From assembly GCA_945787295.1 (NCBI GenBank), contig CALZHQ010000077.1:1-13648 (forward strand): a DNA stretch of 13,648 nucleotides, read 5' to 3'. Source of the stretch: an uncultured Desulfuromonadales bacterium (GTDB lineage Bacteria; Desulfobacterota; Desulfuromonadia; Desulfuromonadales; Geopsychrobacteraceae). Shown here piece after piece: positions 3,065 through 9,526 of this stretch. The position numbers were made by a program, and so were the translations under genes. The notes under the pieces are model-generated. The model did not search any database and had not been told where the DNA came from. It saw only the letters and a program-made list of their open reading frames with translations. Numbering within the stretch: the stretch's first letter is position 1; each line of letters begins with the position of its first letter.

Positions 3065-3580
3065 GGTCAAGCTTTATAGGATCCAAGAAATGGCGAATTA
3101 CTCGTTGAAGTCCTGGTACAGGCACAGATCTAGATACGCAGGACCGTTGTCACGCAATCTGCGGCATGTCTCATTGGCTGCATATTCTGATCAAAGCCAC
3201 CACCCGGTGAGGAATATTCTAAAGACTTTTGCGCTCAATTTACACAAAGTTTTTTACACCCTCTTCCGGGGACATAATACCTATTTCCAATACCTGACAT
3301 CTCATGGCAGAAAAGGCTCAACCAGTTGCTCTGGAAGGGGTTTTTATTAAAATTGACCGACAATGCTAACCTGCTTTTAGATAGGACAATTCACGCCAGT
3401 CAGTTGCACCATAAAAAACATCTCTAAAGTCTTTACATGTGAAAATTCCCGCCATCTGAACATTCGAGCGATTTTACCCGCCATTAAATGCTGACAGAAT
3501 GTTTCTTCGTACTTCGAGCAAGATCACAGCAATATGGTAGCGTTTAACTATCCGATATCTGAAGTAAAGGAGATGTTGCC
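3065..3580. other. 516-bp gene-free stretch before the OsmC selenoprotein gene
   Basis: I see no convincing gene on either strand. An 86-codon open frame at 3090-3350 has an S/R/H/Y-rich composition and no family signature. The segment CGGGGACATAATACC...TTTCC at 3268-3288 looks like the short GGGGACA...CTATTTCC motifs that I associate with relics of REP/IS200-like elements. TTGACC (3353-3358) with TTAGAT 18 bp later could be a weak promoter. The last part carries the strong Shine-Dalgarno AAAGGAG (3566-3572) of the next gene. Confidence 0.4.
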
Positions 3581-4045
3581 ATGTCTGAAATCATTCACAC
3601 ATCGCGGATCACGATCACAAGAGACCGCGGTCCAATCAGAATCGCCCGAATAGAAGGCTTTTCGGAACCTGTCTTCTATGGTGTTCACGGAGGGATACAG
3701 AAATTTTACAAGGTCGATCCGATCGAAGAACACGCCGCGACCTTGGACCACATAGTCGGTGCTGTATCCGCTTGAATGATGGGAACCTTCGCCAGCGTGC
3801 TGGCGACCAAGAAAATAAGAACTCATACCGACCGTTTTATGGCCAATGTTGAAGGCGATATTGAGAACGTCGCAGGGGTGCTCAAAATTACGGTAATTCG
3901 CGTTCATTATGTGCTGAAACTAAGCTCTGAAGAAGAATCAGATGCTCGTTGGGCAATGGAAAATTACATTGAAAAGTGTCCCGCGGCAATGAGTGTGACT
4001 GGGTGTATTCGTCTCGAAGATTCCCTTGAGTTCACTTCGGAGTGA
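3581..4045 (+). CDS. OsmC-family selenoprotein (TGA at 3773-3775 read as selenocysteine 65)
   Basis: Two open frames, 3581-3772 (64 codons) and 3776-4042, are in the same frame and separated only by TGA. Joined, they give one 154-residue OsmC/Ohr-fold protein. The N-terminal half has RIARIEGFSEPVFYGVHGG and EEHAATLDHIVGAVSA. After the TGA come MMGTFASVLATKKI, the strand DRFMANVEGDIENVAGVLKI, RVHYVLKL, and EKCPAAMSVTGCI. In OsmC-like proteins the segment equivalent to VGAVSA-x-MMGTF carries the peroxidatic Cys, and the TGA is exactly there. The partner Cys is C133 in the conserved CPxxxSV. Neither half has decayed, AAAGGAG lies 8 bases before the ATG, and a SECIS-like hairpin follows the TGA. 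These proteins reduce organic hydroperoxides or similar oxidants. Sec-containing OsmC-like proteins are a known bacterial family. A simple nonsense mutation is the alternative, but less likely. Confidence 0.85.
3789..3806 (+). promoter_or_regulatory. Bacterial SECIS-like hairpin in the OsmC selenoprotein mRNA
   Basis: TCGCCAG (3789-3795) and CTGGCGA (3800-3806) form a perfect 7-bp stem closing the tetraloop CGUG. The loop begins 20 nucleotides after the UGA and has G as its second base followed by U. Published bacterial SECIS rules call for a small apical loop with a G in its first two positions, roughly 16-37 nucleotides from the UGA. SelB would bind this loop to deliver Sec-tRNA. Confidence 0.75.
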
Positions 4046-4378
4046 AACACTGGGCCAAACATTCAACTGTGCCCCCTATTTCGGACGACTCGGGTTGCGG
4101 TGACAACGAAGTCCTGAGCGAACCGAGTCATTCACATAGGGCGTAGATTTTCTGGCAGAAGTTGGGGGAGATGGAGGCCAACAAGCGACACCGATGCGAT
4201 CTTCATAAACACAATTCCCTCTCAATTCAGCTGTTATCGGTGTGGAAGCCGAACAACTGCAGCCCCTTATTTGACAGACACCATTGCCCTTTTACAATTT
4301 ATCAGCAATGGCAGAAGTCAATGCCTGAACAGGGAGTAGCGCCTGGCCCTCACATCCAACAACCGTCTGGAGGAAATG
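4046..4378. other. 333-bp gene-free stretch with one structured element
   Basis: No credible gene is visible. A 77-codon open frame at 4162-4395 has no family features and overlaps the next gene. GTGCCCCCTATTTC at 4070-4083 resembles the motif noted at 3268-3288. The arms GACTCGG (4087-4093) and CCGAGTC (4123-4129), extendable by TT/AA with a bulge, form a hairpin around a 29-base loop. There is no T run, so it is not an obvious terminator. GGAGG at 4369-4373 belongs to the next gene. Confidence 0.4.
4087..4129. repeat. Inverted repeat downstream of the OsmC selenoprotein gene
   Basis: The 7-bp arms GACTCGG and CCGAGTC are perfect reverse complements. The next bases (GTT on the left, AA on the right) add two pairs across a bulged G. 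It lies 42 bp after the selenoprotein stop. It could be a factor-dependent termination or mRNA-stability structure, or part of an old repeat element. Confidence 0.45.
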
Positions 4379-5773
4379 ATGCTATCAAAAATTGAACTCT
4401 TATTTTCTTTTCTCCTTTGTTTCACGCTGATGGCCTGTGCTCCTGTAACGCCGCACCCGCACCCCCACATTCTGGTCGACCGTGACGGGTATCCGCTCAG
4501 AGATGACGGCGGTCGAATGTCGGAACCGGAATTCGAAAAGAGGATCAATGAGATCCGAACTAAAGTTGCCGAGTATATTGAGAGTTCAGGGCAACAAGGC
4601 AAGAAAGCTCGTTTGCTGGTGATGATTCATGGAGGAATGACCGGACGCCGTGACGGCCTGAATCAAATGGACCAGCTGCTCGATGATGAGCTGCTCGCGA
4701 AAGTCGGCGGACTCGACTCCGATGTCTTTCCAGTTTTTGTCAACTGGGACTCCTCTTTGCGGTCCTCCCTGACCGACGACCTGTTCCTGGTCAGGAGGGG
4801 AAGGCGGGATCCTGTTGCAGGTGTTTTGACCTCGCCAATCATCCTGTTCGCCCGGTTGGTCGAAGGCGTGGTCTATTTCCCTGTAACCCTGGTGCACCAC
4901 CTCGACACGTGGAAGATGCAGTTCGAAAAATGGAAAAAAGAAGATTCAAGCCCTGGAGCTACGGTGGCGGAAGGAGCCCTCAACATTATCACCCTCCCCC
5001 CGGCTCTGGTCACCCTCCCCTTCCTGTCAGCCTACGGCGAGGGGGCCTGGAATATGATGCAGCGACGCATCGATCAGATGTTTGCCCACCAGATCGCACC
5101 ATTACCCCCATTTTATACGGAGAAAGTCACCCGCCCGGGGGCTCTGAGGGAGTTCTTTGAGATCATCGAGTCAAATTACGGCGAAAGCGCCAGGAGTTCT
5201 GCCGGAGGGTCGAGGGTTGAGGTGATTCTGGCCGGGCACAGTATGGGGGCAATTGTCGGAAATCGCATCCTGAGGGATTTTCCTGCCCTCAAATTCAGCC
5301 GGATTGTCTATCTGGGAGCTGCCGCAAGCATTGAAGATTTTATCACTACTGTCCCTCCCTACCTGAGCCGATACCGTGACACAGAATTTTACAGCTTCAG
5401 CCTGAGCGTCCGGGATGAGGGGGGGGAATTCAACTATTTTGCGCCCCGCGGCAGCCTTTTAGTCTGGATTGACAGCCTTTTCGACCCGGGGCTTTCGGCC
5501 ACCGGCAACCGAGTGGGGTCTTTTGTGAACCGGAACGCCATCGGAATCCGAAACCCGTCAGACGAAGTCTGCAAGCGCATTCATTTTTTGAAATTTACCG
5601 GGCAAGAGGGTGACCCGCGAAAACACGGGCAGTTCAACGACCCCGGTATTTTTCAAAACATGCTCGCTATCGCCCTAGACAAATTTGACTCGGGAAGAGA
5701 CCATCTGGAGAAGCGCTTCGAGATCCACGAGAACATTTGCCTTAAGCCTACCGGATTTTCGGCCGGCCGTTAG
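4379..5773 (+). CDS. Alpha/beta-hydrolase-fold lipoprotein (serine hydrolase, lipase/esterase-like)
   Basis: The 464-residue protein starts with a lipoprotein signal (MLSKIELLFSFLLCFTLMAC) whose lipobox LMAC would be lipidated at C20, followed by a P/H-rich tether. The hydrolase core begins near residue 78 with LLVMIHGG, which fits the oxyanion-hole strand. The nucleophile elbow is VILAGHSMGAIVG with Ser288 in the GxSxG motif. KHGQF (about residue 418) is the best candidate for the catalytic histidine. Between them lies a long insertion with hydrophobic stretches (about 140-235), possibly a lid or a membrane-contact surface. GGAGG at 4369-4373 is only 2 bases from the ATG at 4376 but 5 from the ATG at 4379, so the latter start is preferred. 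The substrate is unknown. It is anchored in the outer or inner membrane, facing the periplasm. Confidence 0.8.
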   Translation: MLSKIELLFSFLLCFTLMACAPVTPHPHPHILVDRDGYPLRDDGGRMSEPEFEKRINEIRTKVAEYIESSGQQGKKARLLVMIHGGMTGRRDGLNQMDQLLDDELLAKVGGLDSDVFPVFVNWDSSLRSSLTDDLFLVRRGRRDPVAGVLTSPIILFARLVEGVVYFPVTLVHHLDTWKMQFEKWKKEDSSPGATVAEGALNIITLPPALVTLPFLSAYGEGAWNMMQRRIDQMFAHQIAPLPPFYTEKVTRPGALREFFEIIESNYGESARSSAGGSRVEVILAGHSMGAIVGNRILRDFPALKFSRIVYLGAAASIEDFITTVPPYLSRYRDTEFYSFSLSVRDEGGEFNYFAPRGSLLVWIDSLFDPGLSATGNRVGSFVNRNAIGIRNPSDEVCKRIHFLKFTGQEGDPRKHGQFNDPGIFQNMLAIALDKFDSGRDHLEKRFEIHENICLKPTGFSAGR

Positions 5774-6219: not shown

Positions 6220-7281
6220 ATGACAAAGCATAAAAATAAGACTCCCCGGGAGAAAGTTCTAAAAAAACTGGCCGAAGGGCTAGAATCTGCAACGAAAAAG
6301 GCGCGGCGGCGGAAGAGTGTCACCGATCGGTTCGAGGTCCTGTCGAATGAAATCCTGGAGCTTGGTAAATGGTTGCCTGGCGAGGATTCCAGCGCCCAGC
6401 CGGGCTGGTTGAATGAGATCGGATCCGGCTTGGCGAACGCCGCTCTAGGGTTACGTGCTCTTGACGATTGCGACATCGATGAGCGGTCCGAGACCGTCGA
6501 GTCAGCCGGTTTGCTGACGGACGGGCTTTATGTGGTTGCCGAGAGCCTCGTTGTCGGCGGAAAGAGTCTGGCCGGGGTCAAGCTGCCGAAGGAAGGTACC
6601 GACAACAGGGTCGATCTGCCTCATCTGCAACGGATGATGACCGATCTGGTCTTCGACATAGAAACGGCCGCCAACCGCATTGCTGGTGGAATGGGGGAGG
6701 GCCTGCACGATGAAGATGTTGCCACCCGCCTCCCGGTCTTTTCCTCCGGTTGTGGCAGTCGTGGTCGCCTGGCGAAAGGGGCAATAGAGGAAATGTTTAT
6801 TGACGATCAGTCAGCTCAAGTCGAGGAGCCGATCCCGTTTACGTTCGATCGTCAGGCTTTGGTCGTTGCGCTGGAGGACGTTGGGGGCTTGCTGGAACGG
6901 TTATTAGCGCTGCTTCTCGAATTGGCAGCACTCCTGTTGGTCATGGCGACCGGCTACATCCCATGGCACTGCACCCAGGAATGTGTCGGTGACGGTGCAC
7001 TCCTCGGGCCTAAACTGAAGAGTACTCATGCCAAACGACAGGGGAGTGGCTGGTATCAGCCGCAGATCAGCATCACTTGGGAGTACTGCTGCTACAACCT
7101 TTGTGTCTTGGCGTGGAACGATCAGTTCATTGAAACGGTGGACAGTGGGCCGCACAACATCGGTCGAACAGTAGGGCACCCAAACCCGGTGACTGCGCAG
7201 AACCGTGCGCGAGCTGCGGCGAAGAACCGTGCAACGGTCCAGGCAATGCTCCGCATCGGGGCGCCGGGAGCTCCCTGTTAG
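6220..7281 (+). CDS. Hypothetical protein with a hydrophobic helix and cysteine-containing C-terminal region
   Basis: I do not recognise this 353-residue protein. The start is well supported: AAGGAG at 6208-6213, 6 bases before the ATG. Residues 1-33 are strongly basic (MTKHKNKTPREKVLKK..., ARRRK) with no signal peptide. Residues about 34-170 look helical and acidic. A leucine-rich hydrophobic segment (about 223-246) could be a membrane helix or an amphipathic packing helix. The region after it has HCTQEC (C251, C255) and YCCYNLC (C290, C291, C295) plus many aromatics, then a basic A/R/N-rich tail ending in Cys. There is no CXXCH heme motif and no recognised zinc finger. The riboswitch-like leader upstream suggests control by a cyclic dinucleotide, and a strong terminator ends the unit, so it is probably transcribed alone. 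Confidence 0.75.
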   Translation: MTKHKNKTPREKVLKKLAEGLESATKKARRRKSVTDRFEVLSNEILELGKWLPGEDSSAQPGWLNEIGSGLANAALGLRALDDCDIDERSETVESAGLLTDGLYVVAESLVVGGKSLAGVKLPKEGTDNRVDLPHLQRMMTDLVFDIETAANRIAGGMGEGLHDEDVATRLPVFSSGCGSRGRLAKGAIEEMFIDDQSAQVEEPIPFTFDRQALVVALEDVGGLLERLLALLLELAALLLVMATGYIPWHCTQECVGDGALLGPKLKSTHAKRQGSGWYQPQISITWEYCCYNLCVLAWNDQFIETVDSGPHNIGRTVGHPNPVTAQNRARAAAKNRATVQAMLRIGAPGAPC

Positions 7282-8483: not shown

Positions 8484-8600
8484 TTAATTTATCGTGGCTT
8501 GAGTCATTCCCGTCTGCTCGACAAACGTCAGGATTGATTGCGTAGGGTCACTGGGACGACCCCGTTTTCTCCTGCTGCTGTCGCTGGCAAGAACCCTCAT
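8484..8600 (-). pseudogene. Decayed N-terminal fragment of an iron-sulfur flavoprotein gene
   Basis: Reading the minus strand from 8600 gives MRVLASDSSRRKRG, then an ILTFVEQTGMTQATI segment and a TAA stop. It aligns without gaps to the first 38 residues of the intact gene 102 bp away (MKILAFNGSRRKRGNTS..., ILAPAEQTGAITETI). The flavin-binding loop GSRRKRGNT has become SSRRKRGRP, and the fragment stops before the cysteine cluster. Same orientation and close spacing point to a tandem duplication whose second copy was truncated. No expression is expected. Confidence 0.7.
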
Positions 8601-8701
8601 CTGTCGCTGCTCAGTCCTAAAACCAAGGATCATATAATTCACGTTGGAAAGGCCCTGGCTGCACACCATCTGCGCGTGCTGAATCGTGAGCTTCGGAACT
8701 G

Positions 8702-9274
8702 TTATCGATTCAACTTCTGTCCCGCCAGGTCCGCTTGGCGCAGAACCTTCTCAGCAGCCTTGATGCTTCCGGCCTCGAAACAGCCGAGCGCACAAACCGA
8801 ATCGACCAACTCCAGACCGATGTCACGGGCGAAGTCACTGAGCAGAGTCAGGGTGTTACCCATCATCTCCTCTTCAAACTGCTCGCAGACCGCAGCGGTA
8901 ATACAGCGCTTGCTCGTCTTGTGGTATTTGCCGATCCATTCCTGGCGGCTGTTCGGGTATTGGATCAGGCTGTAGCTGCGGTCGATAAAGCGTTTCATGT
9001 CGGAGGTCACCGTGTACCAGTAGGTCGGCGAAGCCAGAACGACGGCCTCGGCCTCGTCCAGCTTTTCGATCAGGCTGGCATAGTCATCCTTGATCACACA
9101 GTCCCAGGAACCGCTGCAGCCCTCACAACCGGTACAGGCTTCGATCCGGTAATCACCGAGAAAAATCGTTTCCGTTATCGCTCCCGTCTGTTCGGCTGGC
9201 GCCAAAATGGTTTGAATGAGAATGCTGGTGTTTCCCCGTTTTCTTCTGCTGCCGTTGAAAGCAAGAATTTTCAT
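8702..9274 (-). CDS. NADPH-dependent FMN reductase-family iron-sulfur flavoprotein (Isf-like)
   Basis: The 190-residue protein has a flavodoxin-like fold. The N-terminal strand and FMN-phosphate loop read MKILAFNGSRRKRGNTS. The cysteines C47, C50, C53 and C59 (ACTGCEGCSGSWDC) have the compact CX2CX2CX5C spacing of archaeal Isf, where they hold a [4Fe-4S] cluster. ASPTYWYTVTSDMKRFIDRS (about 80-100) is the second flavin-contacting loop typical of the family. Isf proteins pass electrons between ferredoxin-like donors and oxidants such as O2, peroxide or quinones; the partner here is unknown. The open frame runs on to 9403, but AAGGGG lies just before the ATG at 9274 and the fold starts there. 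It is divergent from the next flavoprotein, and a truncated copy of its 5' end lies downstream. Confidence 0.88.
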   Translation of the reverse strand: MKILAFNGSRRKRGNTSILIQTILAPAEQTGAITETIFLGDYRIEACTGCEGCSGSWDCVIKDDYASLIEKLDEAEAVVLASPTYWYTVTSDMKRFIDRSYSLIQYPNSRQEWIGKYHKTSKRCITAAVCEQFEEEMMGNTLTLLSDFARDIGLELVDSVCALGCFEAGSIKAAEKVLRQADLAGQKLNR

Positions 9275-9526
9275 CTCTATCCCCTTATTGTCTGGGTTTG
9301 AATCGCGGCGGAATTGCGAGGCGCCTTCGCAGCCGACTTTATCGCCGCAAGCATAAAAAAGAAACGGTTCTATAGCCAATAAAAAGGTTCTGGTATAAAA
9401 CAATCATGTAGCCACCAAGGCGCTAAGAGAGTCATACGCTTGGAATTGGGGTTGACTTGGGCTCCTGGTGTCTTGCGGGCTGTACTGTAGTCGTACTTCA
9501 GGTCCACCACTAACAAGGAGTTTCAT

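Follow-up and report, generated by a model that had tools for sequence, protein, structure and literature searches.

Positions 3581-4045 on the forward strand of a 13,648-nucleotide DNA stretch from an uncultured Desulfuromonadales bacterium (contig CALZHQ010000077.1; the whole analysed stretch is referred to below as the window) almost certainly encode a functional selenoprotein of the OsmC superfamily, produced by recoding of an in-frame UGA as selenocysteine (Sec). Sec recoding is strongly supported because the UGA is conserved across relatives, the rare relatives with a different residue include Cys forms, a hairpin with a G in its loop follows the codon, and 15 of 21 carrier genomes contain selA, selB and selC, genes of the selenocysteine machinery (sel genes), together. 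The gene and its elements are as follows.

3567..3572, forward strand: Shine-Dalgarno motif AAGGAG, 8 nt 5' of the first ATG
3581..4045, forward strand: predicted Sec-containing OsmC-like protein of 154 residues, with the natural stop TGA at 4043-4045
3746..3748, forward strand: codon of Asp56, nine residues before Sec and invariant in 47 aligned relatives
3773..3775, forward strand: UGA putatively read as selenocysteine 65, in the column of the peroxidatic Cys and aligned with the peroxidatic Cys (Cp) of Ohr 6d9n
3789..3806, forward strand: hairpin resembling a selenocysteine insertion sequence (SECIS), stem 3789-3795 with 3800-3806, loop CGTG at 3796-3799 with G at loop position 2
3977..3979, forward strand: codon of Cys133 (CPAAMSV), the predicted resolving Cys, aligned with the CP of Ohr 6d9n

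Under the standard code, the gene appears as two open reading frames (ORFs) of 64 amino acids (3581-3775) and 89 amino acids (3776-4045), which lie in the same frame and are separated solely by the TGA at 3773-3775. The joined 154-residue protein scored 33.3 bits with the Pfam OsmC model (PF02566, cut-off 27.5); the match spans residues 56-145 and thus falls almost completely in the half after the UGA. The joined protein is also predicted to adopt the OsmC-domain fold, so that it belongs to the OsmC superfamily both by the PF02566 cut-off and by the fold of its predicted structure. A preliminary description of this DNA had proposed that two same-frame ORFs split only by a TGA form an OsmC-like protein, and both the coordinates and the Pfam score agree with this. 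The motifs it named, VGAVSA-U-MMGTF and the retained Cys133 in CPxxxSV, are likewise found in the joined protein, the latter as CPAAMSV.

To obtain relatives, we scanned genome contigs from 84,980 species with alignment-based patterns that excluded the UGA column, and used the best 80 of the 149 encoding places. The window and these 80 loci make up a set of 81 sequences; a set of 82 additionally includes one copy from genome G063. At the column in question, TGA was present in the window and in 79 of the 80 loci, and the remaining locus, from a Syntrophaceae metagenome-assembled genome (MAG; L073), had TGC. This alignment (80 TGA and one TGC in 81 sequences, with Cys in the rare relatives) upholds the proposal that TGA replaces the reactive Cys of the family. 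The codon of Cys133 encodes Cys in all 81 sequences, and the G063 relative (on a 3.5-Mb contig, 92% identity) has TGA at the column as well. The internal codon does not behave like a stop, because the true ends of the 82 genes use all three stop codons (32 TGA, 31 TAA and 19 TAG); at the UGA column, TAA or TAG occurs in none of the 82 sequences. A broader survey gave the same picture. In the order of carrier G003, 10 of 136 genomes matched, and all 11 matching rows had one TGA, four of them belonging to a sister type with 34-36% identity. In a sample of the phylum, 36 of 395 genomes matched and all 37 rows, one of them of the sister type, had one TGA, a figure that counts TGA per row irrespective of its position.

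The protein sequence on both sides of the UGA is constrained. Comparison with four relatives gave ratios of nonsynonymous to synonymous substitution rates (dN/dS) of 0.061-0.126 after the UGA; before it, three ratios were 0.015-0.038, and the remaining comparison reached saturation (ratio of the corresponding uncorrected proportions, pN/pS, 0.081). These values indicate that both halves of the gene are under purifying selection against these relatives. Residues R14, R20, T54, L55, D56, G68 and T69 are invariant in the 47 aligned relatives. The stop that breaks the frame in the standard code could also mean that the TGA is a true nonsense mutation in a decaying pseudogene, or that the gene was misread through a sequencing error, but either is hard to reconcile with a TGA common to 79 of 80 relatives, with low dN/dS in both halves and with a retained hairpin. 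The conservation of the TGA already refutes this reading, to which we assign practically no probability, and we rejected it.

The databases show this gene mainly as a fragment. Of 272 protein matches, 120 were listed, and 109 of these are pieces of 88-91 amino acids that start at either Met after the UGA, the other 11 being longer; Malonomonas rubra and Desulfuromonas carbonis are among the names given to the 89-residue entries. By their records, D. carbonis and Desulfosarcina cetonica JCM 12296 are cultured carriers. The usual mis-annotation anticipated in the preliminary description is therefore what the listed relatives display. The fragments could be real if translation stopped at the UGA and restarted at the adjoining ATG (UGAAUG) to give a separate 89-residue protein, as the database pipelines in effect assume for these 109 relatives. 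However, 75 of the 82 sequences have a ribosome-binding motif in front of the first start, compared with only 3 of 82 in front of the ATG after the UGA, and in the window gene no Shine-Dalgarno motif was found before the ATG directly 3' of the UGA. The absence of TAA and TAG from the column and the continuous reading frame of the Cys forms also speak against two peptides, as does the first half, which is at least as conserved as the second although the Pfam match lies almost wholly in the latter. On the basis of the ribosome-binding motif counts, the column codons and the continuous Cys forms, we rejected re-initiation as very improbable.

The hairpin is located where a bacterial SECIS (bSECIS) is expected. 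The bSECIS model, as set out in the relevant part of PMC13188914, has a loop of 3-9 nt, a stem of 4-16 bp, a G in the first two loop positions and the loop 16-37 nt after the UGA; the window hairpin has a 7-bp stem and the loop CGTG 20 nt after the UGA, in agreement with the model. Of the 82 sequences, 80 passed the bSECIS rules as coded here, the failures being the Cys form L073 and the locus L052. Strong hairpins (score at least 15) were present at the SECIS place in 78 of 82 sequences, compared to 1, 0, 20, 4 and 2 of 82 at five offset control positions, and the hairpin structure pairs 88.9% of the cells versus 6-63% when it is slid along the alignment. Six of the seven stem pairs are present in at least 65 of the 82 sequences (67 distinct); 49 of them lack the loop-closing pair 23-28, which only enlarges the loop. 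Taken alone, the window hairpin folds moderately better than chance (z = -1.87, with 8 of 200 shuffles as good), and among 300 synonymous-codon shuffles of the window, 5 reached its hairpin score and 6 its energy. Across the whole family, the mean energy was -11.6 kcal/mol versus -8.6 (s.d. 0.29) kcal/mol in shuffles, in a comparison where the rows are related and the shuffles draw on a pooled codon table. Cells with changes on both sides of a pair numbered 10 versus 1.5 in shuffles, most of them arising from one C-G/G-C switch common to the window's close kin; for pair 18-33, two-sided changes were seen in eight sequences and a broken pair in two, again mostly reflecting one switch within the window's kin. 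Scans of the window with Rfam at the gathering threshold and for tRNAs gave no matches.

The evidence on sel genes comes from the genomes of relatives: 21 carrier genomes were picked for spread from the genomes of the 80 loci. In them, tRNA-Sec (selC) was detected at 62-79 bits in 16 genomes, and selB and selA exceeded their cut-offs in 19 each; selA, selB and selC occurred together in 15 of the 21 genomes and at least two of them in 19. Of 14 control genomes, five passed the cut-off of the tRNA-Sec model RF01852, which ordinary tRNAs also reach; at the stricter threshold of E 1e-10, E. coli and M. jannaschii were the only controls left. All three genes are present in G063, which has the closest copy among the genomes searched, and in G021, the genome of the Cys form L073.

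Several observations weigh against Sec recoding. The loop G is absent in L052; the median sequence of the family is only mildly unusual, since 4.7% of its synonymous shuffles reach the hairpin score and 11.7% the energy; and covariation is slight, with two pairs changing on both sides across the 82 sequences, as in 139 of 500 shuffles. For 5 of the 19 selB matches, the best-matching stretch extends over just the first 60% or so of the model, and 5 of the 21 carrier genomes have no tRNA-Sec over the cut-off. Rescanning of four genomes (G018, G004, G008 and G017), with 150 of the 226-451 candidates scored in each, again revealed no tRNA-Sec over the cut-off; selA is present in all four and selB in three. 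G018 is a whole-chromosome record (C1) that contains selA, selB and the Sec-OsmC gene; none of its scored candidates exceeded the Rfam cut-off for tRNA-Sec, and the missing match may reflect either a divergent tRNA-Sec or a limit of the search. G013 lacks selA, selB and selC altogether. The locus found in it, L028 in an 'Opitutaceae' record, is probably misbinned, because its protein is nearly identical to that of L029 from an Acidobacteria MAG and the genome has no sel genes.

The remaining point against Sec is the presence of Trp at the column in 5 of the 11 full-length relatives among the matches listed (P0002, P0005, P0007, P0009 and P0044; the other six have Cys), with P0005 and P0009 forming a pair on their own branch. 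If the UGA were read as Trp, or recoded in another selenium-free way, such proteins would be expected. Yet at the DNA level TGG was found in none of the 80 checked loci, and TGC was the only sense codon seen. Translation code 4 reads TGA as Trp, and gene callers may pick this code on short contigs. Four Trp rows were placed in the tree, at three positions: P0002 and P0007 each stand beside a single Sec locus, as expected from code 4, and P0005 and P0009 make up the third. Thus, the Trp at the Sec column probably stems from code 4 translation of TGA on short contigs. Furthermore, 3 of 8 Pfam-supported genes in the window end in TGA. With TGG in 0 of 80 loci, TGC as the sole sense codon and a SECIS-like hairpin, we rejected Trp decoding, whose probability we regard as negligible. 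The preliminary description had listed a sense codon other than Cys in relatives as evidence that would contradict it; such a residue does appear in the database proteins but not in the DNA-checked loci. For surveys of Sec and Cys forms, the Trp-bearing database proteins are a trap.

Having found recoding to be by far the best explanation, we asked to which OsmC family the selenoprotein belongs. OsmC-like selenoproteins are treated in the literature as one family, COG1765 or pfam02566, with a UxxT motif where a motif is given, as far as the pertinent sections of PMC9312934, PMC13188914, PMC1088965 and PMC2398784 describe it. The NCBIfam model NF041052, 'OsmC-related (seleno)protein', resembles the window protein in having an OsmC domain and Sec in the same helix region, the alignment crossing the UGA column, and in a hairpin after the UGA in the two of its Sec copies that were folded. 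The motifs, however, differ: two NF041052 Sec members have FULLTQL or FUMFSQL and a later Cys in GCY or GCH, whereas the window protein has UMMGT, with Gly at +3 and Thr at +4 instead of Thr three residues after Sec, and CPAA. Judging by the UxxT motif, NF041052 appears to be the OsmC-like selenoprotein of the Sargasso Sea/Global Ocean Sampling (GOS) data (COG1765). The window protein scored 12.8 bits with NF041052 (cut-off 95) and eleven further members at most 22.7 bits; in these 12 scanned members, no NCBIfam model reached its cut-off. In the 395-genome sample, the window kind was found in 35 genomes and NF041052 above its cut-off in four (five copies, three with TGA), and none of the listed NF041052 places coincided with the window-type places. 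Because of the score far below the cut-off, the distinct Sec motif and the non-coincident places, we assign the window protein and the listed Sec-OsmC (UxxT, NF041052) to different subfamilies. The earlier statement that the Sec-OsmC family is known is thus correct for one listed family, of which the window protein is not a member.

Two other Sec types were encountered. The Desulfopila Sec-OsmC (P0122, L102) shares with the window protein Sec in the OsmC helix and a later CP motif and scores 70.8 bits with PF02566, but its helix reads GSUISITLRMYA, with Pro eleven residues before Sec, and it is a separate paralogue in a genome that also has a window-type copy; we read it as YhfA-like. This paralogue (L102:1396-1827, forward strand) scored 54.7 bits with NF041052, below the cut-off. 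An additional OsmC match, containing one TGA, is located at G010:C120. The sister type mentioned above (L124-L127, 34-36% identity) has TGA in 4 of 4 sequences and resembles the window family in the HATTLD approach to Sec, in GGULTGT and in CPVY, but forms its own clade with 100/100 support on a long branch. Its genomes (G022, G152, G122 and G119) contain selA, selB and selC in 4 of 4 cases, and the two of four members scanned with NF041052 scored 24-30 bits, below the cut-off.

A maximum-likelihood tree of 96 rows was used to follow the Sec and Cys forms; it was rooted at the midpoint, which by chance lies on the sister branch, many of its forks are open and the search was seeded with the window family. 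The seven Cys rows fall into three groups inside the Sec clade, and the starred branches force three changes. Since the Cys forms are nested at three places and the sister clade is Sec too, Sec is likely ancestral and Cys derived in the clade of the window. In L073, the only Cys gene with DNA seen, the SECIS has been lost. The third Sec type (P0122) together with the sister clade (L124-L127) indicates that OsmC proteins gained, or retained, Sec on more than one occasion. Tentatively, the subfamily and its sister clade may have been Sec-based from the start, with Cys forms replacing Sec later, having traded the catalytic Glu of Ohr for a different acid-base set of H51, D56 and H57 and acquired their own substrate or reductant in anaerobes, a scenario we hold to be possible rather than probable.

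The proposed mechanism would begin with decoding of the conserved UGA at 3773-3775 as Sec through SelB and tRNA-Sec, with the hairpin at 3789-3806 as the directing signal. By alignment, Sec65 would occupy the peroxidatic-Cys position and Cys133 the resolving-Cys position of OsmC/Ohr enzymes. A PDB sequence search with the single joined protein returned chance matches only; with the family profile, Ohr 6d9n (E 0.12) and an OsmC-like chain (E 0.26) ranked behind unrelated luciferase rows. The equivalence of Sec65 and Cp is proposed because of the 6d9n alignment (E 0.12) plus the fold match. Reduction of a hydroperoxide or similar oxidant would oxidise the Sec to a selenenic acid, and a Sec65-Cys133 selenenylsulfide would then form and be reduced by a cellular dithiol. 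The predicted resolving Cys stands in a CP motif, its codon encoding Cys in all 81 sequences, and the invariant R14 and R20 are candidates for the catalytic Arg.

We consider reduction of a hydroperoxide or similar oxidant the likeliest role, with somewhat better than even odds. Evidence against it comes mainly from the active site. In Ohr, with its catalytic Glu51 and Cys61, the Glu is ten residues before Cp (PMC5962072). The window family has the invariant Leu55 there and the invariant Asp56 at -9, and this replacement appears to weaken a peroxidase role. The scores with the Ohr, OsmC and SACOL1771 models of NCBIfam (TIGR03561 and TIGR03562 among the Ohr/OsmC peroxiredoxin models), far below the cut-offs, count against it as well, and among the 11 full-length relatives the Cys form P0012 has Ser for Cys133 and P0044 lacks the CP motif. 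Alternatively, Sec-OsmC could be a thiol/selenol enzyme acting on another substrate, e.g. a persulfide, a selenium species or an electrophile. The invariant T54-L55-D56 with H51/H57 in place of the Ohr Glu would fit such an enzyme, as would the lack of any NCBIfam peroxidase model at cut-off in the 12 members, and many hosts belong by their record names to groups that we take to be strict anaerobes. Conversely, the retained Cp and Cr (resolving Cys) columns, the OsmC fold and rubrerythrin genes at some loci favour an oxidant, and we see another substrate as the less probable option, though a serious one. That Sec would raise the reactivity to hydroperoxides is an expectation, given that the position of the Ohr catalytic Glu is occupied by another residue.

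The neighbourhood leans weakly toward oxidative stress. Rubrerythrin, a peroxide-detoxification protein, is encoded within 5 kb in 6 of the 82 loci (Pfam-confirmed in L048); in four related Desulfobacterales it lies downstream at a distance of about 23-24 nt. It is the only gene that sits a few bases downstream at several loci, all of them close relatives. Universal stress proteins are near 7 of 82 loci, one of them Pfam-confirmed, and a MerR-type regulator is found about 0.4 kb past the gene end in G063. A conserved operon is mostly absent among the 672 neighbouring ORFs of the 82 loci: the largest neighbour clusters comprise 11 loci (in our reading PAS-type sensors), 7 loci (alcohol dehydrogenase-like, again in our reading), 7 loci (the universal stress proteins) and 6 loci (rubrerythrin). 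When the window was compared with eight relatives at the nucleotide level, the shared sequence was confined to the gene and to at most 63 bases 5' of it. Neither plasmid tblastn nor a viral-contig scan with the joined protein gave matches.

Mechanistically, Sec recoding at a known reactive position is ordinary; what it reveals is a widespread Sec-OsmC subfamily without an NCBIfam model. This subfamily is fairly common among bacteria that reduce sulfate or metals and among their relatives: including the sister type, it occurs in about 1 of 11 genomes of the phylum sample, yet it remained below all NCBIfam cut-offs in the members scanned. As selenoprotein surveys and annotation pipelines depend on family models, a model for this subfamily would fix many annotations and raise selenoproteome counts. 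The literature searched contained no report of an OsmC selenoprotein from Desulfuromonas, supplements and older subscription papers being outside the search. Such papers, for instance on the selenoproteome of the Olavius symbiont, may include sequences of this kind. OsmC is absent from the main text of PMC8318568. A clade that is mostly Sec runs counter to the usual picture, drawn in the part of PMC1088965 concerned, of sporadic selenoproteins beside widespread Cys homologues, and provides a natural Sec/Cys series for asking how selenium benefits an OsmC enzyme.

Elsewhere in the window, a radical SAM protein has up to 80% identity to Desulfuromonadales proteins, in line with a source of this order. 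Two long ORFs on the forward strand, 4376-5773 and 6220-7281, have no Pfam match at E 0.001, and the first has, by eye, a lipoprotein-like start. On the reverse strand, a short ORF at 8484-8669 resembles, also by eye, the start of the flavin mononucleotide (FMN)-reductase-like gene at 8702-9403 and is perhaps its truncated duplicate.
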